A DNA stretch of 21,023 bases, taken from positions 1 to 21,023 of IMG/VR virus record IMGVR_UViG_3300036768_000940. The stretch is one strand, 5' to 3'. A model generated the notes under the pieces. The model was not told the origin of the DNA. It was given only the letters and a program-made list of their open reading frames with translations, and made no database searches. The position numbers and the translations under genes were made by a program. Positions 3,537 to 20,873 of this stretch are shown here, one piece after another. Positions within the stretch are counted from its first letter, which is position 1; each line of letters starts with the position of its first letter. The DNA is from a virus.

Positions 3537-3741
3537 CTTCTGCTACACCCTTTATGGAATTTGTTATTTCTTGCATCATATCGTCAAATCTTTGGCATAT
3601 AAGGTCATGAGCTTTATTCATGGCATCGTCAGCATAACGCTCGCCATGATCGCACTCCGACTTAGCCTTTAGAGCTTTTTCCATAAACTCTTCGGCATCT
3701 AATAATGTTTCGCCTTTATCAAGTTCAACTTTAATTCTCAT
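3508..3741 (-). CDS. Small helical protein of unknown function between homing endonuclease and minor head genes
   Basis: The 77-residue protein starts with a beta-like MRIKVELDKGETLL and continues as charged amphipathic helix. It has no recognised motif. Its ATG overlaps the stop of the homing endonuclease gene (ATGA) and its 3' end overlaps the minor head gene, so all three should be on one transcript. Before the endonuclease arrived it would have followed the portal gene directly. It could be a small portal- or head-associated protein, but this rests on location alone. Confidence 0.7.
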   Translation of the reverse strand: MRIKVELDKGETLLDAEEFMEKALKAKSECDHGERYADDAMNKAHDLICQRFDDMMQEITNSIKGVAEDVFRTKISG

Positions 3742-4943
3742 TCCCGCTCCAAAACAAATTTTAAATTACCAGTACCATACACTTTAAGAGCATTCTCAAA
3801 CTTATCATTGCCCCAAGAAGCTCTTCGGTTATATAGCTTCCCGTTTAATAACCAATCAAAGTCGACGCTAGTCATTCCAACATACCTAAAACCAGCTTTT
3901 CGATAAATATCTCCGTTCGAATAACGAGCATTAGCATAGCTAATTATATTACTACTTGATAGCTTTAGTCCAGCCTTCAATAATTTACTAAATCCCCCAA
4001 CCACTTGATACCCGAGCTTAGTACAAAACCTCGCAATCTCTAAACCTTCTTTATGATTTCTAAAAGTAATTAAAGCAACTAACTCACTCTCATTATATAA
4101 ACCTAAAGCTACGATTGAAGGTGTATAGCCTTGGAGATGGTTAGCATTTAGAAAGTCTTTTTCGCTAGATTTGTCTACAGACTTTACGCTCAAATTCCTA
4201 GCAAACAGCTTCTTATCAAACGATCCTAACTTAGCTCGGATCATGCTCAAAACTATAGCACGTTTAAATTCATATTCTCCCGCCCAAAATTGCAATAACG
4301 TATAGCCTCGCTCCTTAGCCAATTGGTATTTTTTACGATGGTAGTATTTATCTCTAAACTTTGAGGAATGCCAATACTCTCCGTTAAGCTCTACAGCGAT
4401 ATTACCAATTACAAAATCCAATTCTAAATGAGAACCTTGAATCTTCACATTACGTTTAATTTGCGGGGTTATCCCTAATAAATCTTTATAAAAAGCCTCT
4501 TCTAAACTAGACCTAGGAGCGCACATTGGGCAAACAGGGGATTGAAGGAAATTGTTCGTATTGCGCTCGAATTTATGCCCTTTACTACACCTATAAACTC
4601 TGGCACGACCATTAATTTTAGAAACAACTTCAATACCCAAACCAAGACTTTTAACAGTTAGAGCATGTCGGTCTACGATGTTGGAATTTACAATTTTACC
4701 GACGGTGTTTTCGTTAACACCCGTGATCTTGGAAATTTGTCTATTGGTTAATCCCTTAGCATTAAGTTCTAAAATCTGCTCACGATTTACAACGGAGTGT
4801 TTTGCTTTAGTTTCAAGGCCGTTTTTCTTAAGAAAGTTGCGGACCGCCGTAAAACTTACGCCTAACGATTTGGCCATCCTTTCCATGGACAAGCCGTCGT
4901 TTAAAAGCTTTATGACTTCTTCTTTACGGGAATCCAACAACAT
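3738..4943 (-). CDS. Free-standing Vsr-like (EDxHD-type) homing endonuclease
   Basis: The 401-residue protein has two N-terminal helix-turn-helix-like units (about 8-42 and 55-87, with LSMERMAKSLGVS and LTNRQISKITGV). A probable zinc finger follows (Cys119, His123, Cys138, Cys141). Then comes a Vsr/restriction-type nuclease core at about 145-225: SSLEEAFYKDLLG, LELDFVIGNIAVELNGEYWH, H202, and TLLQFWAGEYE. The C-terminal 160 residues are the domain that often follows this core in phage homing enzymes (LITFRNHKEGLEIARFC, ISYANARYSNGDIYRKAGF). Such enzymes cut a conserved gene in a related genome and spread by repair. It starts 2 bases after the portal stop and overlaps the next ATG by 4 bases. 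That is a clean insertion in the head operon, with only a weak ribosome binding site. Confidence 0.8.
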   Translation of the reverse strand: MLLDSRKEEVIKLLNDGLSMERMAKSLGVSFTAVRNFLKKNGLETKAKHSVVNREQILELNAKGLTNRQISKITGVNENTVGKIVNSNIVDRHALTVKSLGLGIEVVSKINGRARVYRCSKGHKFERNTNNFLQSPVCPMCAPRSSLEEAFYKDLLGITPQIKRNVKIQGSHLELDFVIGNIAVELNGEYWHSSKFRDKYYHRKKYQLAKERGYTLLQFWAGEYEFKRAIVLSMIRAKLGSFDKKLFARNLSVKSVDKSSEKDFLNANHLQGYTPSIVALGLYNESELVALITFRNHKEGLEIARFCTKLGYQVVGGFSKLLKAGLKLSSSNIISYANARYSNGDIYRKAGFRYVGMTSVDFDWLLNGKLYNRRASWGNDKFENALKVYGTGNLKFVLERE

Positions 4944-10929: not shown

Positions 10930-13485
10930 TTAAACACCACAAACACCACCTACACACTCTGCTTCTTTTTCCTCGAACACAACACCTTCATTAGCAAGAG
11001 CTTCGTCCAAAGACACTGCAGTCAAAGGCTGACCTCCACGACATCCATCAGGATATACCGTAAAGCCTCGAAGTCTCTTAGCGTATTTTAAAAGTATCAT
11101 AGCGTTTTGCTCGAGTGTCTCTTCGTTGTTTTTTTCTGATCCCCAAGCTGGCATGTTGCAGGTAGATGAAATAGACATATCAACATACTGCTGTACATCA
11201 GCTTGGAACTTCACTCGCTCTTTAAAAGAAATATCATAAGAGTCTTGGATATGTTCTAGTTTAACTCCTTGCTCAAGAAGTCGTTTCACTGCTCCATCAA
11301 CGACGTATTGATACATCCATTTACCCTCTTTGTAATAACGACGTTTATACGCCTTACAGAACAAAGGCTCAATACCAGTAGTAGTTTCTGCTAGGATACC
11401 GATGGTACCTGTTGGGGCAATGGCCCTAACACCTTTTGGCACTGCAACTCCTAATTGCTTAGCACCTACAAATGCAGAAGCATCTGATTCCCTCTCATAA
11501 GTAGCAAGCCATTGATGCAACTCAGGAACACATTGATACTTATACCCTCTAAGCATTAGCCATTCGTGTATACCACCAAGACCTAAACCAATTCTATTAT
11601 TCTTTAAACCTACCTCTTTAATTTTTTCAGTAGGCACATCGGAGTAAATACCACCACATAACAAAAATAAGGTTCCGTATTTTACGACTTCTCGGAATTC
11701 TTCTCGGTCCTTACAACGATTCATCCATACGGTTCCTAAGTTACACTTATCAGAATCATCTTCAGAAACTACCTCAGTACAAGCGTTTCTTAAAGATTCA
11801 GCATCTCGTCTGAAGTTAAAAGCCATACCAGGCTCTGCGGTTGAGAATGCTTGACGACAGTTCTCAAGCCATATTTGCTTTGCTTTTGCGTGATCAGGAT
11901 GATTTTCGTCTTCAATAGCTATGAAGAAGTTAGTATCATAGATCACTGAAATATTAGTAAATTCCATTGGGAGTCTGAAGTTTAAATCTTTCTCCTTCAT
12001 GGCTTTAAGTTCTGGGGAATGATCTTTTAAATGGATAAACTCCATAACATCTTTATGATCCCAGCTCAAACCTGCCCATATAGCGGACCTACGTTGACCG
12101 CCTTGCATGATGTGTCTACCAGTTTCGTTAACCATTTCCATTAAAGCTAAAGGTCCTGTACAAAACCCTCCAGTACGTTTAATTGGAGTTCCTTTGGGAC
12201 GAACAGCAGAATAATCCACCCCAATACCACCGCCAGTAAGAAGTGCGGCACACGCCTTACTCATAAGATCCGCCCAACCTTCTCGAGTATCTTCTGCTCT
12301 GAATAAGAAACAGTTAGAAGTTAAAACTCCATTGGCCAACATGAAAGTATGAGTTTTCGGCGCAACTACACAATAAACCTTTGCTTGATGTGACGGCTGT
12401 ACATCCACTACATCTAAGTACATTTCCCTTTTATAAAAATTTCTATCTTTCATGTTCTCTTGATGATGAGGCAGAATAATCGGAGCAGAAAAAGGCTCGA
12501 TATGGATGAAGCATAGCTCTCGAGAAACACCGTCATAAGGACTGACTTTAGATTTTACTTCAATGGAACTAACTACACAACCTCCAGCAACAGCTATTTC
12601 TCGAAGTTTTTTTGCACGCTCCATTCCTTCGCAAGTAAGTAAAACTGAGCCACCTAAAGAAGCATGACCATCAGTAGCTATAAGGCCTGCTATAAATCCC
12701 CGTGCATATTCTGGAGTATAAACCTCGGGAATTTCTTTATAACGCTCTGGTTGAAATCCTATCTCCATACCAACTTTTGTCTTTCTAACAGTTTGGTATT
12801 TTTGTTTAGTATCAAATCCCACCTCAATTTCTTTGTTTTCAAAATAAGATGCTAAAACTTCCTTTTTTGGATTTACGATGACAATTTCGGTATAGCCTGT
12901 TTTTGGGTTTTTATAACCGTCACCGAAAATTATTCCATGTCGAATACCTTCTGGATCTAGTGCGATAGAAGTATCCCCTTGAGTTAACATTACGCGTTTT
13001 ACTTCTTTAGTAGTAACTCTGGAGCCATCAGGTTGTATCCACAAGTGATCTTCTGTAGTAAGAAACTCATCTCCATTGGATAAAGTCATTTTATACAAAG
13101 TCTGAACCCCAAATTCTCGGACTTCTGCTTGTTCCCATTCTCCCTTCCAGTTCTTAACTTCGACTTGCTGTCCGACTTTGTCCTTCAAAGAAAATACGCC
13201 AGTTTTAGTAACGAATCTAGTATCACCATCAAAACAATTGTTCACTTGGTGAAAGGGACGACCAGCAGAGTATAAATAACGCCCGCCTGGGATGAATTTA
13301 CGTTCCTTCATGAATTTAAGGATCTTAGCTTTGGCTTTGGCGTCAAGAAGCTGCCCACAAACGGCGTTGACCACACGCTCACAGGTATCATGCCAAGTCT
13401 CAGTACCATTCATTGAGTACTTTTGCATGAAAATATCGTAGGCGAATTTGTTTGAAAACACGTCGTAACTCTGTTTTTCTGACAC
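10930..13485 (-). CDS. nrdJ: Class II (adenosylcobalamin-dependent) ribonucleotide reductase containing an intein
   Basis: The 851-residue precursor makes deoxyribonucleotides for phage DNA synthesis. Removing the intein (residues 84-391) leaves a 543-residue enzyme, which is short for the family and has no ATP-cone. Class features are GGGIGVDYSAVRP at 418-430, GGQRRSAIWAGLSWDH, the radical site NACTE with Cys569 and Glu571, CNLGTV with Cys581, and PTGTIGILAETTTGIEPLF. The active-site redox pair is Cys392 (first residue after the intein) and Cys581. A CX4C pair (844, 849) at the C-terminus would shuttle electrons. No NrdB-type small subunit is present nearby, as expected for class II. Start is a GTG 7 bases after AAGGAGG. 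It follows the RuvC-like gene by 21 bases. Confidence 0.9.
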   Translation of the reverse strand: MSEKQSYDVFSNKFAYDIFMQKYSMNGTETWHDTCERVVNAVCGQLLDAKAKAKILKFMKERKFIPGGRYLYSAGRPFHQVNNCFDGDTRFVTKTGVFSLKDKVGQQVEVKNWKGEWEQAEVREFGVQTLYKMTLSNGDEFLTTEDHLWIQPDGSRVTTKEVKRVMLTQGDTSIALDPEGIRHGIIFGDGYKNPKTGYTEIVIVNPKKEVLASYFENKEIEVGFDTKQKYQTVRKTKVGMEIGFQPERYKEIPEVYTPEYARGFIAGLIATDGHASLGGSVLLTCEGMERAKKLREIAVAGGCVVSSIEVKSKVSPYDGVSRELCFIHIEPFSAPIILPHHQENMKDRNFYKREMYLDVVDVQPSHQAKVYCVVAPKTHTFMLANGVLTSNCFLFRAEDTREGWADLMSKACAALLTGGGIGVDYSAVRPKGTPIKRTGGFCTGPLALMEMVNETGRHIMQGGQRRSAIWAGLSWDHKDVMEFIHLKDHSPELKAMKEKDLNFRLPMEFTNISVIYDTNFFIAIEDENHPDHAKAKQIWLENCRQAFSTAEPGMAFNFRRDAESLRNACTEVVSEDDSDKCNLGTVWMNRCKDREEFREVVKYGTLFLLCGGIYSDVPTEKIKEVGLKNNRIGLGLGGIHEWLMLRGYKYQCVPELHQWLATYERESDASAFVGAKQLGVAVPKGVRAIAPTGTIGILAETTTGIEPLFCKAYKRRYYKEGKWMYQYVVDGAVKRLLEQGVKLEHIQDSYDISFKERVKFQADVQQYVDMSISSTCNMPAWGSEKNNEETLEQNAMILLKYAKRLRGFTVYPDGCRGGQPLTAVSLDEALANEGVVFEEKEAECVGGVCGV
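12313..13236 (-). mobile_element. Intein with LAGLIDADG-type homing endonuclease inside the reductase
   Basis: The in-frame 308-residue insert starts at Cys84 (CFDGDTRFVTKTG, block A) and has block B LTTEDHLWI (Thr144, His147). Two degenerate LAGLIDADG motifs follow: RHGIIFGDGY (Asp189) and GFIAGLIATDGH (Asp272). It ends with blocks F and G, VYCVVAPKTHTFMLANG then VLTSN, with terminal Asn391 followed by Cys392 of the host protein. Splicing would join VNN to CFLFRAED. Cys1, terminal Asn and Cys+1 are all present, so it should splice by the standard route. The penultimate residue is Ser390 instead of the common His, a variation known in some active inteins. Both LAGLIDADG acidic residues are kept, so the endonuclease may be active. 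Confidence 0.92.
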
Positions 13486-14958: not shown

Positions 14959-15174
14959 TTAATGGATACTCGGATCACCATCAAATAGATCACTTATTTG
15001 ATCCATTAAACCGTTAACATAAGCCTGATTGTCTACGTCAGGCCCTAAGTTAATAAAGTAAACCTTAAAACCTGAATCTTCCAACGACTCCACCCAAATG
15101 GCTATCTCATCGTTAATCTCGTTAACGAGCCTTTCGACTTTAGCGCAGTTAGATTGCCCTTTAATTAAAATCAT
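14959..15174 (-). CDS. Small unknown protein, paralog of the 15264-15479 gene
   Basis: The start is the ATG at 15174 (MILIKGQSN), preceded by AAGGAGGG. The 71-residue protein aligns without gaps over its whole length with the neighbouring 71-residue protein: IKGQSNC.K.ER.VN.I.DE.A.W.ESLE..GF, and both end in a His. The C-terminal helix (NGLMDQISDLFDG) also appears as a fragment at 16120-16203. A good promoter lies just upstream. Function unknown; a tandem gene duplication is clear. Confidence 0.65.
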   Translation of the reverse strand: MILIKGQSNCAKVERLVNEINDEIAIWVESLEDSGFKVYFINLGPDVDNQAYVNGLMDQISDLFDGDPSIH

Positions 15175-15210
15175 TCTACCCTCCTTTTTATTTCTCACTT
15201 GACGTATTTA

Positions 15211-15239
15211 AATATATATTTATTTACCAAAATAGTCAA
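15211..15239 (-). promoter_or_regulatory. Sigma70-type promoter between the two paralogs
   Basis: On the minus strand TTGACT (15234-15239) and TATATT (15211-15216) are exactly 17 bases apart in the 89-base gap before the gene starting at 15174. Initiation near 15204 gives a 30-base leader with the AAGGAGGG site. Confidence 0.6.
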
Positions 15240-15263
15240 CTTTTATTTAAACTGCCCCCGCTA

Positions 15264-15479
15264 TCAATGAACATTTGGAATCTCAGCAAGGAATTCATCG
15301 ACTATTCGAGATAGGTAGTTGTTGTAAGCTTTCTCATCTTTTTCCGATCCGAAATAGGTGAAGGAAAACTCAAAACCTAATTTTTCCAACGACTCCATCC
15401 AGGAAGCTACCTCGTCGTCAATTTTGTTGACTATTCTTTCGATCTTGTTACAGTTAGATTGACCTTTGATTAATACCAT
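15264..15479 (-). CDS. Small unknown protein, paralog of the 14959-15174 gene
   Basis: This 71-residue protein (MVLIKGQSNCNKIERIVNKI) has the same length and pattern as its downstream neighbour: a conserved N-terminal KGQSNC, a DDEVASWMESLEKLGF helix, then a strand and a C-terminal helix. The second half has diverged more than the first. AAGGAGGG precedes the ATG. The pair probably arose by tandem duplication; retention of both suggests use, but no function is recognisable. Confidence 0.65.
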   Translation of the reverse strand: MVLIKGQSNCNKIERIVNKIDDEVASWMESLEKLGFEFSFTYFGSEKDEKAYNNYLSRIVDEFLAEIPNVH

Positions 15480-15492
15480 TTTGCCCTCCTTT

Positions 15493-15696
15493 TTAAAAAT
15501 AAACTTCAGTTAAATCCTCGGTTATGTACGCACAACCGATTTGTGAACTATTTAATATCCCTTTCAACCATTCAATAGCCTCGGTGAACGAGTTGAACGG
15601 TCTAGATAACACCACACAATTCTGTTGCACTAAATACCAAGTGTGGTTATTAAAGACGTGCCTAACGATCAAGCACCTATCGTATTGAGTCTTCAT
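15493..15696 (-). CDS. Small unknown protein (67 residues)
   Basis: MKTQYDRCLIVRHVFNNHTW and WYLVQQNCVVLSRPF look like beta strands, followed by a helix FTEAIEWLKGIL and a final strand (CAYITEDLTEVYF). It resembles a small single-domain protein of beta-beta-alpha-beta layout. GAGGAGGG precedes the ATG, and the ATG overlaps the stop of the remnant at 15693-15779. Its leader and first four codons are nearly repeated before the mini-ORF at 16120-16203, so this gene took part in local duplication. Confidence 0.6.
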   Translation of the reverse strand: MKTQYDRCLIVRHVFNNHTWYLVQQNCVVLSRPFNSFTEAIEWLKGILNSSQIGCAYITEDLTEVYF

Positions 15697-15779
15697 TTTG
15701 CCCTCCTCTCAGCTTTGTGTTCTAGACGAACTTGTTTTTCGTGAGTCCTAGTATTGCCTGGGACTTCGCGATCTAGCAT
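15693..15779 (-). pseudogene. Remnant duplicate of the 3' end of the 16200-16409 gene
   Basis: A 28-codon frame ends HEKQVRLEHKAERRAK and a TGA that overlaps the next ATG. The 16200-16409 protein ends QELQKQARLENKAARRAK, also with a TGA overlapping the next ATG, and the following GAGGAGGG-type leader is nearly the same at the DNA level. There is no good ribosome binding site at a normal distance from its own ATG. It is most simply a decayed copy of a gene end, though a translated micro-ORF is not excluded. Confidence 0.55.
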
Positions 15780-15837
15780 TAATGTTTTCTACTCCCATTA
15801 TACAAATAATACTCCCTACCCCGCCGCCGCATTCCCT

Positions 15838-16056
15838 CTATTCTGCCTCTTCTTGCCCTACTTCCACTTCTGAAGTAAAGACAGGTTCACGAAACTCTGG
15901 ATAATTACTCACCAATTCATCCCACTGTTTGCGAAATTCCTCAATGTTCTCGACAAGATCTGAAGGGTCTAAATCAGAGTAGACCCCAGCTATCCTGTAA
16001 GTTGAAGTTGTCTCTTCCTTTTTCTCTACTGGTTTAGATGACTTTAATTTGTTCAT
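15838..16056 (-). CDS. Small acidic protein of unknown function
   Basis: The 72-residue product has a basic start (MNKLKSSKPVEKKEE), then TYRIAGVYSDLDPSDLVENI, a helical middle (EFRKQWDELVSNYPEF) and an acidic end (EVEVGQEEAE). AAAGGAGG lies about 6 bases before the ATG. It has no recognised domain. Its neighbours are other short unknown genes on the same strand. Confidence 0.6.
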   Translation of the reverse strand: MNKLKSSKPVEKKEETTSTYRIAGVYSDLDPSDLVENIEEFRKQWDELVSNYPEFREPVFTSEVEVGQEEAE

Positions 16057-16119
16057 TAGTTGCCTCCTTTTAGGTTTATTTATTGTTTTTTATTTAACTC
16101 TTAGTCACCATCATAGCCT

Positions 16120-16203
16120 CTAAATGAGTACTAACCCATTATCAAATAGATCACTTAGCTGATCCATTAGATGATTAGCATACTCCCCACTTTGAGTTCT
16201 CAT
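16120..16203 (-). pseudogene. Chimeric mini-ORF joining two local gene ends
   Basis: A 27-codon frame starts MRTQ, like the MKTQ start of the 15493-15696 gene with the same leader, and continues with ANHLMDQLSDLFDNG. This matches the C-terminal helix of the 14959-15174 protein (VNGLMDQISDLFDGD). The matching DNA includes an identical run of 17 bases (ATCAAATAGATCACTTA at 16141). This looks like a deletion product that fused the start of one gene to the end of another. The ribosome binding site is good, so it may be translated. Confidence 0.55.
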
Positions 16204-16409
16204 TTTGCCCTCCTCGCAGCTTTGTTTTCTAGCCGAGCCTGCTTTTGTAGCTCTTGAACCATACCAGGCAATACTTCTAAAGCCGTGTACGCTCCGTACT
16301 CTTTAATAAACTCCTGCAAAACTTGCTTTAAATTAAGTATGAGCAAGGCTGGTTCGCTAAGGGCTTGTACCCTGGTTTTGCTTCTTATTTTGATAACGTT
16401 AGTTTTCAT
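16200..16409 (-). CDS. Small helical basic protein of unknown function
   Basis: The 69-residue protein has a basic N-terminus (MKTNVIKIRSKTRVQ), a long helical middle (LLILNLKQVLQEFIKEYGAY) and a basic helical end (KQARLENKAARRAK). Its stop overlaps the ATG of the mini-ORF at 16120-16203. It follows the AAA ATPase gene by 21 bases with AGGAGGG before its ATG, so it is probably co-transcribed with the ATPase. Its 3' end has a degraded copy at 15693-15779. Function unknown; DNA binding is possible from the charge only. Confidence 0.65.
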   Translation of the reverse strand: MKTNVIKIRSKTRVQALSEPALLILNLKQVLQEFIKEYGAYTALEVLPGMVQELQKQARLENKAARRAK

Positions 16410-17257: not shown

Positions 17258-17548
17258 TTAAGCCGCCTTAGTATTAATATTTAAAAAATCTAAGTCAGAT
17301 ACGATTTCACCAGTATCGTCCCAAATTAAAACGGTACGTCCACCATGACCGTGAAGTAAAACTACGTCAACCCAATTTTCAAACTTGGTTACGGTTTTAA
17401 TTTCACGAGTCGAACCGTCAGCTAAACGTGCGTCTACAATCCACCTAACGCACGCACAGCCAGTTGAGCTTACATACCCTATGGCAACATAACCCGTGCC
17501 TGAAACGCCGCTTAAATCTCGTCTTCTATAAAGCTTAAATGATCTCAT
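17258..17548 (-). CDS. Conserved protein of unknown function with SGVSGTG motif
   Basis: The 96-residue protein begins MRSFKLYRRRDLSGVSGTGYVAIGYV, has CACVRWIVDARL in the middle and ends LLHGHGGRTVLIWDDTG. I recall this pattern (basic-aromatic start, SGVSGTG, a CVRW-like strand, HGHGG with a final W) from small hypothetical proteins widespread in bacteria and phages, but I know of no function. The composition suggests a small beta-rich domain. It is first after the repeated element at 17587-17750, with AAAGGAGG before the ATG, so it should be expressed early and well, in front of the AAA ATPase. Confidence 0.7.
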   Translation of the reverse strand: MRSFKLYRRRDLSGVSGTGYVAIGYVSSTGCACVRWIVDARLADGSTREIKTVTKFENWVDVVLLHGHGGRTVLIWDDTGEIVSDLDFLNINTKAA

Positions 17549-17586
17549 TTTATACCTCCTTTGTTATGGTTTGTACCTATATACAA

Positions 17587-17750
17587 GGCAAAGCTGATGC
17601 CAGCTCTTAAGCGAATATATTTGAGCTGGAGAAGTGTTAGGCGTAAAAGGAGTGTACAGGCGAAGGTGGTTTTGTGGTCTAAGTTACTGAAAATAAGGAA
17701 TAAAAATAGTTTTCGTCAGGTTTTTTGACATGTTTAAAAGTTTGACGGGG
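17587..17750 (-). repeat. 164-bp upstream element, copy 1
   Basis: This element ends 38 bases before the start codon of the 17258-17548 gene. It aligns without any gap to copies at 19104-19267 and 20229-20392. Three blocks are conserved: a hairpin block nearest the gene (GCCAGCTC with GAGCTGG around an AT-rich loop), a TGAAAATAAGG block that on the minus strand reads CCTTATTTTCA, and a distal TTGACATGT and TTGACGGGG block. On the minus strand CTGACG and TATTTT are 18 bases apart, a plausible promoter. Confidence 0.8.
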
Positions 17751-17772
17751 GTATGGGCTGATGATAAGCAGT

Positions 17773-17810
17773 AAAAAAATAAAACAGCGGGTACTAAGGC
17801 CCGCTGTTTT
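17773..17810 (-). terminator. Strong rho-independent terminator of the second cassette
   Basis: AAAACAGCGGG and CCCGCTGTTTT form a perfect 11-bp stem around an 8-base loop, followed on the minus strand by TTTTATTTTTTT. It lies 35 bases after the small gene at 17846-17983 and just before copy 1 of the repeated element, so it separates cassette 2 from cassette 3. Confidence 0.9.
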
Positions 17811-17845
17811 GAGGATTTTAAGGTGATTTTAAGTGCTATGAGTAT

Positions 17846-17983
17846 TTAGTTTGAATCGTTAGTGCTGGGTGATTCGTCTTTGGTTTCGGTACTAAGTACT
17901 TCACCCTTTTGCTTTAAAATATCCTCGAATAGGATATTGGCTGCCCCTATGGGTAGTTGTGGGATTGTGGCGTCGTTTTTCAT
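17846..17983 (-). CDS. Very small protein (45 residues) at the end of the second cassette
   Basis: The frame reads MKNDATIPQLPIGAANILFE, then DILKQKGEVL and a polar Ser/Thr/Asp tail, ending in TAA. A perfect AAAGGAGG lies about 6 bases before the ATG, as strong as for any gene here. A terminator follows at once, so the ORF fills the space between a ribosome binding site and a transcript end. There is one helix-like segment and no membrane stretch. Function unknown. It is not related to the paralog family upstream as far as I can see. Confidence 0.65.
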   Translation of the reverse strand: MKNDATIPQLPIGAANILFEDILKQKGEVLSTETKDESPSTNDSN

Positions 17984-18005
17984 GTATACCTCCTTTGTTT
18001 ATATT

Positions 18006-18395
18006 TTAATTAAATTTATATGATTCGACCCAACTCATTAATTTTTCATACGAAAATGAATTGAGTTTTTTAGTGATTTCGGCCAATAGTTTTTTACATT
18101 TTGTCTGTTCGCGGTCTTTAGTGAGACATAAGGCTAGCTCGATAACCCCCTGAAAGTTCGTTTCATTTACGGGCGAAAGCGGGTTTAAGCCGTGTTGTGT
18201 GACGAGGGTTGAAAGGAAAACCTTGTATTTATTTCCTTCCTGAAGGATGACCATTTCAGCTTTTCCTGAAAGAGCGGGGTGACTAAGTGCAAAGCCTTTA
18301 CACTCTCCAGGTGTTAGGTATTTTGACACTTTAAATCCCTGATCGATTAAGATACGCTCTAGTTGTACTAGTTGTATTGATCGTATTAAAGTCAT
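18006..18395 (-). CDS. Member of a local paralog family of unknown function (copy C)
   Basis: The 129-residue protein begins MTLIRSIQLVQLERILIDQG and then follows the family pattern: GFKVSKYLTPGECKGFALSH, HPALSGKAEMVIL, YKVFLSTLV and GLNPLS. Residues 1-75 match the proteins at 19729-20190 and 19435-19695; the last 50 residues are a separate helical tail with a Lys-rich segment. A 9-bp tandem duplication (TACAACTAG twice) near the start lengthens the N-terminus relative to MTLIQLERIL in the 19435-19695 copy. AAGGAGGG precedes the ATG. It is second in cassette 2. Confidence 0.7.
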   Translation of the reverse strand: MTLIRSIQLVQLERILIDQGFKVSKYLTPGECKGFALSHPALSGKAEMVILQEGNKYKVFLSTLVTQHGLNPLSPVNETNFQGVIELALCLTKDREQTKCKKLLAEITKKLNSFSYEKLMSWVESYKFN

Positions 18396-18427
18396 ATAAC
18401 CCTCCTTATAGTTTGTATTAATATGAT

Positions 18428-19066
18428 TTATCCATTAAGCTGCTGTGCGGCGGCACGTCGATTTAATTTACGTCTATGAGCTGCTCGAAACTTTGCATAC
18501 AACCACTCGCCTAGTGTTATTTGGTCGTAAACGTTAGTTATTGGTGAAAGTGTGGTATCACTAGCTTGAGGATAACGCACAACGGCCTCGCCCTTAATTA
18601 AACTTTGATACATATTTATTAAGTTTTGATAAATAGTATCTTTGGAACTTTTAGCAGTTTTAATATGAGATGCATCTCGGAGACCTTCCATATACAGTTT
18701 GTCGACCAATATTTTGAGGGCGTCAACTTCACGTTGACGTAAGAAGCTCAAGTTCTCGAGCGGCTGTAAAAAGAATTTATTAATTTCTTCTACAAAATAC
18801 TGCGCATCTTCTACTAGAAATCGAATTTCTCGCATGATACTTCTTTCATCGGCCAAGCTAACCCTGCTTACAGGCAAAAATCCAGTTTTACAGGGCAGGG
18901 ACACAAAAACACTAAATCTGCGTGGCGAAGTGGCTAAAACAACAGCCTCGAGCAAGTTTTCTAGTTTAGGATGTTTAAATTTAAAACAATGCCCCTCTTC
19001 GCACTCTTCATGGTGGGAAAGTGTGAAACCTAAGTCTTTAATTTGTTTTAAAATTGAGTCTTTCAT
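18428..19066 (-). CDS. Longest, most diverged member of the local paralog family (copy B)
   Basis: I chose the ATG at 19066 (MKDSILKQIKDLGF) because AAAGGAGG precedes it; a longer frame starts inside the repeated leader. The 212-residue protein keeps the family core in residues 10-70: GFTLSHHEECEEGHCFKFKH, HPKLENLLEAVVL, RRFSVFVSLP and GFLPVS. It then adds about 140 residues: a helical part (VDALKILVDKLYMEGLRD), a linker, and a basic C-terminus (LYAKFRAAHRRKLNRRAAAQ) that could bind nucleic acid. It has Cys/His residues where other copies do not (EECEEGHC). It is first after copy 2 of the upstream element. Function unknown. Confidence 0.7.
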   Translation of the reverse strand: MKDSILKQIKDLGFTLSHHEECEEGHCFKFKHPKLENLLEAVVLATSPRRFSVFVSLPCKTGFLPVSRVSLADERSIMREIRFLVEDAQYFVEEINKFFLQPLENLSFLRQREVDALKILVDKLYMEGLRDASHIKTAKSSKDTIYQNLINMYQSLIKGEAVVRYPQASDTTLSPITNVYDQITLGEWLYAKFRAAHRRKLNRRAAAQQLNG

Positions 19067-19103
19067 ATATACCTCCTTTGTTATTGGTTTTATTAATATA
19101 TAT

Positions 19104-19267
19104 GGCAAAGCTGATGCCAGCTTTAAAACGAATATATTCGAGCTGGCGGATATTAAGTGTAAAAGAACTATATAGCGCGCTCCTAGTTTTTAGGCCTAAG
19201 TCATTGAAAATAAAGAGCTAAAATAACATTCGTCAATTCCTTTTACATGTCAAATTCTTCGACGGGG
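19104..19267 (-). repeat. 164-bp upstream element, copy 2
   Basis: This is the best-formed copy, ending 37 bases before the ATG at 19066. GCCAGCT (19116-19122) and AGCTGGC (19141-19147) can pair around CGAATATATTCG, itself a perfect 12-bp palindrome. AAAGCTG (19107-19113) and CAGCTTT (19118-19124) make a rival 7-bp stem. On the minus strand TTGACG and TATTTT are 18 bases apart, and TTGACA lies further upstream. It is the presumed promoter and leader of cassette 2. Confidence 0.8.
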
Positions 19268-19360
19268 ATATAGTGAATATGAAACTATTTCAGTCAAGTA
19301 TATCAACTAAATATATTAATAACGACACTCTTAATAAAAAAAATAAATAGGATAACAAAA

Positions 19361-19397
19361 TAAAAAAAAGAGGCAGCCTATATATAAGCTGCCCCCT
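19361..19397 (-). terminator. Rho-independent terminator of the first cassette
   Basis: On the minus strand GGCAGC and GCTGCC form a 6-bp stem (19388-19393 with 19372-19377), extended by GAG/CTC past a small bulge. It is followed by TCTTTTTTTTA. It lies about 40 bases after the stop of the 19435-19695 gene. The 90 bases between it and copy 2 of the repeated element show no further feature. Confidence 0.85.
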
Positions 19398-19434
19398 CAT
19401 ATGAATATTGAGAGATGATGATTTTAATAAAATT

Positions 19435-19695
19435 TTAGAATAACTGCTCGATGATTGACAATACTTTAGTTTTATCTACGGTCCGTATGGACGATATCGG
19501 ATTGATGCCAGTTTTCTTTACTGGAGTGGATAAAAATATGTTGAAGCGGTCTTCGTTTTTAGTTATCACTACGTCTTGCTCAATGGGATAGCTGGGTAGT
19601 GTGGCTGCGAAGCCTTTGCCCTCTTCGGGGGATAAATACTTAGTTACTTTGAAGCCTGCACCAGTTAGAATTCTTTCTAGTTGAATTAAAGTCAT
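19435..19695 (-). CDS. Shortest member of the local paralog family (copy D)
   Basis: At 86 residues this is nearly the bare family core: MTLIQLERILTGAGFKVTKY, LSPEEGKGFAATLPSYP, DVVITKNEDRFNIFLSTP, and KKTGINPISSIRT, ending in a short helix. It shows that residues 1-75 are a self-standing domain. The pattern G-F-x-V-[ST]-K-Y-L-[ST]-P-E-x-G-x-G-F-A is shared with the 19729-20190 protein. AAACCTCC on the plus strand (GGAGGTTT) marks its ribosome binding site. It is second in cassette 1 and is followed by a terminator. Function unknown. Confidence 0.7.
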   Translation of the reverse strand: MTLIQLERILTGAGFKVTKYLSPEEGKGFAATLPSYPIEQDVVITKNEDRFNIFLSTPVKKTGINPISSIRTVDKTKVLSIIEQLF

Positions 19696-19728
19696 ATAAA
19701 CCTCCTTTATAGTTAGTATTAATATTAA

Positions 19729-20190
19729 TTAAAATTCAAGACACTCATAAGTCTGTATTAAATCAGAACACAATGAGTGCACTGTCTTAGAGTTAGATAT
19801 TTTCATGGCCCTAAGTGCAATGGACTTGAATGAAGTATCGCCCCCGTTCATTGTTTCTCTGTATTGATCAATAGTAAGTTGTTGTGAAATATCAGTCCAT
19901 AGTTTTTTGCAGGCCATAAATATATGCGATTTTAAGTGATACATGACGTATTTAGGAACTTCATAACCGTACACCACACTTACATACGATGTCCGATGTA
20001 TCCCGCCCTTTTCTGTGGGAGTCGAGCGAAAGATTTCGTATCTCTCCCCATCATATAAAACAACGATTTCAACTTTATCGGATAAAGCGGGATGGCTAAG
20101 CGCAAAGCCTGTACCATCTTCAGGCGTTAGGTATTTTGACACTTTAAATCCTTGTTTAGTTAGGTTGATTTCTAGTTGTTCTAAGTTCAT
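19729..20190 (-). CDS. Member of the local paralog family, first gene of cassette 1 (copy A)
   Basis: The 153-residue protein starts MNLEQLEINLTKQGFKVSKY and continues LTPEDGTGFALSHPALSDKV, then EIVVLYDGERYEIFRSTPTE. The core (about 1-70) is closest to copy C at 18006-18395 (GFKVSKYLTP, FALSHPALS). The tail of about 80 residues is helical and unlike the tails of the other copies. AGGAGG precedes the ATG, downstream of copy 3 of the repeated element. Same core with different tails suggests a shared binding or fold role with varied partners. I know of no described family. Confidence 0.72.
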   Translation of the reverse strand: MNLEQLEINLTKQGFKVSKYLTPEDGTGFALSHPALSDKVEIVVLYDGERYEIFRSTPTEKGGIHRTSYVSVVYGYEVPKYVMYHLKSHIFMACKKLWTDISQQLTIDQYRETMNGGDTSFKSIALRAMKISNSKTVHSLCSDLIQTYECLEF

Positions 20191-20228
20191 TTTGTCCTCC
20201 TTTTGTTAGTTGTTTTATTAATATATAT

Positions 20229-20392
20229 GGCAAAGAGGATGCCAGCTTTAAAACGAATATATTCGAGATGGCGGAGTGTAGGTGTAGATAAAGTAGATAG
20301 TAGAGAGCGTAGTTTTCGAGATAAGTTATTGAAAATAAAGAGAAAAAATAGAATTTGTAGGTTAAATTGACATGTAAAATAGATTGACGGTA
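20229..20392 (-). repeat. 164-bp upstream element, copy 3
   Basis: This copy ends 38 bases before the ATG at 20190. It has the same length and no gap against the other two. The CGAATATATTCG palindrome, TATTGAAAATAAAGAG and TTGACATGT blocks are kept, but one base change in AGATGGC and two in AAAGAGG weaken both alternative stems seen in copy 2. The distal part reads TTGACATGT then ATTGACGG. It is the presumed promoter and leader of cassette 1. Confidence 0.75.
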
Positions 20393-20873
20393 GGTGGATT
20401 GAGTTAGAGATGTAGATTGAATTAAGAAATAGATTGAATAAATTTGTAGATTGAATTAAGAAATAGATTGAGTCGATAAATAGATTGAATAGATTCGGGT
20501 CGTAGATAAATTGAACGAGGAAGTAAATTGATTGATAGATTAATTAATAAATTGAATAGATTGAATTAATTAATGAGTAAATTAAATTAATATACTGTAT
20601 TAATTAATATTAATAAATTAATATAAATATATATAAATTAATTTAATAAATTAATAAGTAAATTGAATCAATTTAATTAATAAGTAAACATATATAAATT
20701 AATTAAGTTAGTAAATTAATTTAATTAATAAATTAATAGATAAATTAAATTAATATATCGTATTAATTAATATAAATAAATAAATATATATAAATTAATT
20801 TAATAAATTAAATTAATTAATATATTAATTAATGAACTAAATTAATTAATTGTATTAATTAATACAATTAATT
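20393..20873. other. Gene-free, extremely AT-rich tract, candidate origin or spacer
   Basis: I see no gene in this 480-base tract. The first part (to about 20570) is poor in C on the plus strand and built from variants of TAGATTGAAT. The second part is almost only A and T, made of TTAATTAAT and TATATAAATTAAT words. A segment beginning at 20581 recurs imperfectly from 20744 (about 75 bases), so the tract grew by duplication. Such DNA melts easily, which suits a replication origin. Confidence 0.6.
20411..20471. repeat. Pair of identical 27-bp direct repeats with iteron-like TAGATTGA words
   Basis: The same 27 bases, running from TGTAGATTGAATTAAG to AAATAGATTGA, occur at 20411-20437 and 20445-20471, 34 bases apart. 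Each contains TAGATTGA twice, and further copies of this octamer follow at about 20481 and 20550. Short direct repeats next to an AT-rich tract are the layout of iteron-type origins, but no initiator protein is identified here. Confidence 0.6.

Follow-up and report, generated by a model that had tools for sequence, protein, structure and literature searches.

Three repeated elements of 164 bp lie ahead of three transcription units in virus record IMGVR_UViG_3300036768_000940, a tailed-phage contig fragment of 21,023 bp that is called the window here over its whole length. The best reading of these elements, which we consider probable though well short of settled, is that they are enhancer-dependent promoters for the alternative sigma factor sigma-54 (RpoN). 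The evidence consists of a conserved match to the sigma-54 -24/-12 site at the gene-proximal end, a pair of tandem palindromes at the far end, and a spacer between the conserved blocks that has kept its length and lost its sequence.

Three elements of equal length in the window

Genes of the window, including those for terminase, portal, ribonucleotide reductase, RuvC and an AAA_25 ATPase, lie on the minus strand. A preliminary description of this DNA had proposed three elements of 164 bp, and the comparison bore this out, with each copy heading a minus-strand transcription unit:

17587..17750, minus strand: element copy 1, upstream of the phrog_7499 gene
19104..19267, minus strand: element copy 2, upstream of a three-gene cassette
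20229..20392, minus strand: element copy 3, upstream of a two-gene cassette

A DNA search of the whole record for the element elsewhere in the genome returned exactly these three copies. Aligned without gaps over 164 columns, copies 1 and 2 agree at 110, copies 1 and 3 at 104, and copies 2 and 3 at 117 (63-71%), and 89 of the 164 columns are invariant, where 2,000 shuffles gave a mean of 13.3 and a maximum of 25. The copies had also been called gap-free, which holds in the sense of equal total length; in the variable middle, the MAFFT alignment opens a few single-base gaps that cancel out, and compensating indels may have occurred there, so that the term strictly covers net length alone. The ATG codons at 17548, 19066 and 20190, each led by AGGAGG, follow the gene-proximal ends of the elements at 38, 37 and 38 nt, in agreement with the 37-38 nt given before, and similarity among the copies continues for about 40 nt beyond those ends, taking in the ribosome-binding site and reaching the ATG. 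The motifs singled out earlier are real, but their strands had been mixed: TTGACATGT is a plus-strand sequence in copies 1 and 3 and a minus-strand one in copy 2, and CTTTATTTTCA, found on the minus strand, occurs in copies 2 and 3, with CCTTATTTTCA in its place in copy 1. Searches with the element DNA in annotated phages and with two element patterns in IMG/VR gave no match, and an Rfam family search of the elements returned nothing credible.

A candidate sigma-54 site at the gene-proximal end

Sigma-54 promoters have GG-N10-GC as their hallmark, and their consensus, said to be that of Barrios et al. 1999, is YTGGCACG-N4-TTGCW. The gene-proximal end of the elements reads CTGGCATC-N4-TTGCC, with GG at -24 and GC at -12 exactly 10 bp apart in all three copies, and 10 of the 13 consensus positions are matched in every copy. 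Only two columns vary within the site, both among the unconstrained N4. When the start is placed 12 nt past the -12 C, short leaders carrying AGGAGG are predicted:

17587..17603, minus strand: proposed sigma-54 -24/-12 site of copy 1, CTGGCATCAGCTTTGCC, 10/13
19104..19120, minus strand: proposed sigma-54 -24/-12 site of copy 2, CTGGCATCAGCTTTGCC, 10/13
20229..20245, minus strand: proposed sigma-54 -24/-12 site of copy 3, CTGGCATCCTCTTTGCC, 10/13, with two changes, both in N4
17549..17576, minus strand: predicted 28-nt leader of copy 1 with AGGAGG, predicted start 17576 from the -12 position
19067..19093, minus strand: predicted 27-nt leader of copy 2 with AGGAGG, predicted start 19093 from the -12 position
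20191..20218, minus strand: predicted 28-nt leader of copy 3 with AGGAGG, predicted start 20218 from the -12 position

A match of equal quality in the zone giving a 15-60-nt leader arose in 0.10-0.25% of shuffles per copy, and in 0.6% of trials a permuted consensus did as well in every one of the three copies; since the copies share ancestry, they do not agree independently, and these P values are not to be multiplied. None of the 21 other upstream regions in the window reached a sigma-54 score of 8, and the sigma-70, -28, -32 and E consensuses scored worse than sigma-54 at the elements.

Upstream palindromes, T-rich block and spacer

Element positions 5-19 and 22-36, counted in gene direction, form two imperfect palindromes GTCAA-N5-TTGAC that lie 17 bp apart and score 8 and 9 (of 10) in copy 1, 9 and 9 in copy 2, and 9 and 7 in copy 3. 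Conserved ACATGT, part of TTGACATGT, is the junction between the two. Their centres at -163 and -146 relative to the predicted start fit the distance of sigma-54 activator sites (roughly 80-160 bp), and we propose them as a pair of upstream activator sequences (UAS). Word-agnostic shuffling of alignment columns gave P = 0.0065 for the tandem palindromes, and such pairs occur in the window only in the three elements against 0.05 expected, for a word picked after the elements were seen. Between palindromes and spacer lies a conserved T-rich block (element positions 43-71) that contains TTTCARTRACTTA, an 8/9 match to the IHF consensus WATCAR-N4-TTR, with a T-tract.

17715..17746, minus strand: proposed UAS pair of copy 1, GTCAAACTTTTAAAC and GTCAAAAAACCTGAC
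19232..19263, minus strand: proposed UAS pair of copy 2, GTCGAAGAATTTGAC and GTAAAAGGAATTGAC
20357..20388, minus strand: proposed UAS pair of copy 3, GTCAATCTATTTTAC and GTCAATTTAACCTAC
17680..17708, minus strand: conserved T-rich block of copy 1, IHF-like TTTCAGTAACTTA, 8/9
19197..19225, minus strand: conserved T-rich block of copy 2, IHF-like TTTCAATGACTTA, 8/9
20322..20350, minus strand: conserved T-rich block of copy 3, IHF-like TTTCAATAACTTA, 8/9
17633..17670, minus strand: sequence-saturated spacer of constant length in copy 1 (element positions 81-118)
19150-19187, minus strand: homologous spacer of copy 2
20275-20312, minus strand: homologous spacer of copy 3

Positions 1-80 and 119-164 are well conserved, and the 38 nt from 81 to 118 are near chance. 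Mean pairwise identity falls to 31% in the worst 30-nt stretch (positions 81-110), against up to 91% in the best blocks, and none of the 20 columns at positions 81-100 is invariant. Conserved blocks separated by a stretch of saturated sequence but constant length speak for a constraint on spacing and against recent unselected copies.

Besides the homology of the copies, several observations weigh against assigning the elements to sigma-54. Each match is just 10/13, with TGGCAT for TGGCAC, then C for G, and a final C for W, and about 2.3 matches of this quality are expected by chance per window on both strands. The sigma-54 model has no explanation for CCAGCTCGAATATATTCGTTTTAA, about 24 conserved nt lying immediately upstream of -24. 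The resemblance to the IHF consensus is weak, since about 33 chance hits are expected per 21-kb strand and such matches are common in AT-rich DNA. Tandem GTCAA-N5-TTGAC sites stand at no fewer than 80 genome loci, with the odd sigma-54 site downstream at most; among the matches listed, mostly actinobacterial, 3 of 178 oriented sites were followed by a 10/13 sigma-54 match. The 14-bp FleQ box GTCAAT-N2-ATTGAC is absent, the element boxes GTCAA-N5-TTGAC being 1 bp longer, and with the palindrome spacing one base off, FleQ itself is not claimed. Finally, nine phage records, possibly fragments, that were reached as related contigs via TerL and the AAA_25 ATPase yielded no enhancer-binding AAA+ domain, and a TerL search for the host in 84,980 genomes gave no match.

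Genes and terminators of the three units

That two of the cassettes close with a strong terminator before the next copy was confirmed for units 3 (19398-19367) and 2 (17810-17781), both on the minus strand.

17258..17548, minus strand: gene of unit 1, phrog_7499 family, 64% identical to the homologs in related contigs L020 and L021
18428..19066, minus strand: gene C of unit 2, member of the paralogous family
18006..18395, minus strand: gene D of unit 2, paralog, 41% to gene A
17846..17983, minus strand: small gene of unit 2, 45 aa, weak L021 homolog
17781..17810, minus strand: intrinsic terminator ending unit 2, 11 pairs
19729..20190, minus strand: gene A of unit 3, paralog, residues ~96-149 50-53% identical to L020 and L021 genes
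19435..19695, minus strand: gene B of unit 3, paralog, 41% to gene A
19367..19398, minus strand: intrinsic terminator ending unit 3, 14 pairs

In units 2 and 3, the four genes A to D are mutually paralogous, and the phrog_7499 protein of unit 1 is unrelated to them. The element precedes both kinds of gene and is thus not simply carried along with one of them. No member of the A-D family was found in IMG/VR or in annotated phages, and the fold model of gene A, which is confident (pLDDT 89), gave no match in a structure search.

Further repeats adjoin the cassettes. The genes at 14959 and 15264 look like paralogs (15020-15495), and a 55-bp ribosome-binding-site region occurs twice, at 15685 and at 16192 (15685-16246). 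Directly upstream of element 3, positions 20397-20870 are extremely AT-rich and of low complexity, with 17-bp TAGATTGAA-type repeats, possibly a replication or end region. The contig end (20868-21023) consists of 5.4 identical copies of a 29-bp unit, TTAATTAGGGCCGTTATTTTTATTGGCCC, with terminator-like hairpins on the plus strand.

Alternative readings of the elements

The preliminary description had placed the promoter in the upstream blocks (TTGACG ... TATTTTCA). This would be a promoter of another phage or host class, with a repressor on the palindromes and the rest of the element as a long transcribed leader, and we regard it as doubtful. The upstream block is indeed strongly conserved, and copy 2 has TTGACG-N18-TATTTT, 9 of 12 positions. 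However, the best sigma-70 scores in the upstream 210 nt are 8, 9 and 8 of 12, levels that 56-99.7% of shuffles reach, so as sigma-70-type promoter blocks (TTGACA-N16-18-TATAAT) these sequences do no better than shuffles; copy 3 has lost its -35 (CCTACA), and a long leader offers no reason for a saturated spacer of fixed length.

It is unlikely that the gene-proximal block acts as an RNA leader hairpin, whether as an mRNA stabiliser or in translation control. Several leaders of L020 and L021 do fold at the same place, as stable hairpins that differ in sequence and precede the ribosome-binding site (z -2.9 to -4.8), and a stem GCCAGCT/AGCTGGC is possible in copy 2 and, one pair shorter, in copy 1. 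The window leaders, in contrast, have folding z-scores of -0.3 to -1.6, no better than those of shuffles. Covariation gives an unfavourable term (+0.12), and three pairs are lost with no repair, the stem being broken without compensation in copy 3. The hairpin earlier described near the gene is thus unsupported as an RNA structure, and the stretch reads better as a sigma-54 -24/-12 promoter, a model that would place the transcript start after the stem.

Recent unselected duplication of a cassette with its upstream DNA is very improbable. Duplication did happen, given the paralogy of genes A to D, but neutral recent copies would be uniformly similar, and the block structure contradicts this, with blocks of up to 91% mean identity flanking a near-chance spacer (31%); moreover, copy 1 heads an unrelated gene. 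Least credible of all is that the plus-strand frames of 38-55 aa present in all copies (MPALKRIY...) are small genes whose coding accounts for the conservation, as no frame has a third-position excess of changes, copy 2 has an earlier stop and there is no ribosome-binding site; for want of a third-position signal, coding was rejected on either strand.

Proposed mechanism and closest known systems

A looping, activator-dependent sigma-54 promoter is the simplest account of the fixed length, the far palindromes, the bend-like block and the -24/-12 core. The sequence comparisons suggest that RNA polymerase with host sigma-54 would sit closed on CTGGCATC-N4-TTGCC, and a dimeric AAA+ enhancer-binding activator, also of the host, would occupy the two tandem palindromes about 150 bp upstream. 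The intervening DNA would bend, probably at the conserved T-rich block, and the resulting loop would let the activator open the promoter. This geometry would explain why the spacer keeps its 38 nt while its sequence drifts. Transcripts would start 27-28 nt before the ATG and stop at the terminator of each unit, and with a start and a terminator of their own the units would be co-regulated but separately transcribed. Of the earlier proposal of a phage-specific promoter/leader co-regulating accessory genes, the repeated promoter/leader with fixed spacing fits these observations well; "phage-specific" probably does not, the elements being more likely promoters for a host alternative sigma factor than phage promoters of the T7 kind.

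Both sigma-54 promoters in bacteria and repeated elements at gene starts in phages are already known. FleQ boxes (GTCAAT-N2-ATTGAC), IHF and sigma-54 are combined at Pseudomonas fleSR (PMC10723142), and the elements resemble this arrangement in their GG-N10-GC core near the predicted start, their fixed spacing, their palindromes of GTCAA/TTGAC half-sites about 150 bp upstream and the T-rich bend-like block between. Unlike fleSR, they lie in a phage, are reiterated three times, read TGGCATC at -24 and have two tandem N5 palindromes in place of one N2 box. The Start-Associated Sequences (SAS) of cluster K mycobacteriophages are 13 bp long, and the extended SAS (ESAS) is a 17-bp inverted repeat with a variable spacer (PMC3203893, PMC12699233). 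In both cases, repeated motifs mark where some non-structural phage genes begin, inverted repeats lie close upstream, and a ribosome-binding-site tail is shared, but the elements of the window are 164 bp, fixed in length and have a sigma-54-like core. By inspection, the SAS consensus GGGATAGGAGCCC (PMC3203893) is not in the window leaders, and no sequence relation was seen.

Apparent sigma-28 promoters in related phages

Among the nine phage records, the 118-kb contig L020 and the 78-kb contig L021 carry the module of the window, comprising a gene A-like gene, a phrog_7499 gene, g16200 and AAA_25. Reiterated leaders precede many of its genes, which supports the idea of a co-regulating leader, and their sites are close to CTAAAGTTT-N11-GCCGATAAG. 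The pattern AAGT-N12-16-CCGATAAG has 22 sites in five of the nine records (8 in the 118-kb phage and 10 in the 78-kb phage), and in the two large contigs these lie on a single strand and are restricted to 8-10 kb; the reversed pattern, as a control in the same records, gave no sites. The Escherichia coli sigma-28 (FliA) consensus is TAAAGTTT-N11-GCCGATAA (PMC2859248), which is found in relatives L019-L021, and seven sites of the relatives match it at 16/16. Judging from these matches, sigma-28 promoters apparently drive the orthologous module in the sister phages. Reiterated sigma-28 sites were located at G007:83534-91761, G009:63450-73298, L019 665 and 3152, and G002:22-47.

The window elements, unlike sigma-28 promoters (PMC2859248), are without this consensus: none reaches 12/16, the best match anywhere in the window is 13/16, and a sigma-28 matrix trained on the relatives found nothing in the elements when scanned over the window. 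The first module gene of L020 is without a sigma-28 site and has TTGGCATGCGGCGTGCA, an 11/13 sigma-54 match whose predicted start would give the 28-nt leader also predicted in the window, a point in favour of the sigma-54 reading. The nine phage records, which may be fragments, yielded no Sigma70_r2 domain, and a phage-encoded sigma factor was rejected as a candidate, r4 hits being weak and mostly in short open reading frames (ORFs). Given the apparent use of sigma-28 for the module in the sisters, and with Sigma70_r2 not found, these phages would habitually draw on alternative sigma factors of the host, which also favours the sigma-54 reading.

The sister modules (L020 4000-11000, L021 3000-11000) are also packed with TCTCA-NNN-TGAGA, its halves always 3 bp apart, in 13 and 5 full copies. 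The half-sites GTCTCA/TGAGAC number 66 (L020) and 69 (L021) per ~20 kb versus 2-8 elsewhere in the 118-kb phage; the motif occurs in coding and non-coding DNA alike and is not present in the window. A possible regulator, a 98-aa protein with a Fis/NtrC-type HTH_8 domain (E 3e-12) and no AAA+, is encoded at G007:64242-64367 (L028 1357-1653).

The terminase large subunit of a close relative (L017 9120-10700) has an in-frame intein-like insertion within Walker A (GRR|C...N|SGKST), and the ribonucleotide reductase of the window (10930-13485) has an intein-like insertion at about residues 86-389 that its L010 homolog is without. A 401-aa ORF (3738-4943), homing-endonuclease-like by look only, is 82-83% identical to relatives L004/L005, where its neighbours are at ~55-76%, and has no match in L008-L011, a pattern as expected for a mobile gene.

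Implications for phage gene regulation

In the textbook view, tailed phages rely on the main sigma factor of the host or on a polymerase or sigma factor of their own. A limited word search of the open-access literature found no description of phage modules with sigma-54 or reiterated sigma-28 promoters. Sigma-28 and sigma-54 both act in the flagellar programme of many Gram-negatives, and linking their use in these phages to that programme is a conjecture. Tentatively, this accessory/replication module may be tied to the host flagellar hierarchy, through sigma-54 and a FleQ-like activator in the window and reiterated sigma-28 sites in the sisters, with infection tuned to motile cells and the promoter class swapped as genes and leader tails were kept.

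If confirmed, host sigma-54 control of a phage module that brings its own enhancer sites, together with textbook sigma-28 promoters ahead of most genes of that module in sister phages, would represent a turnover of promoter class around a conserved gene set, and would make these phages conditional on a host programme, for example flagellar assembly and swimming.

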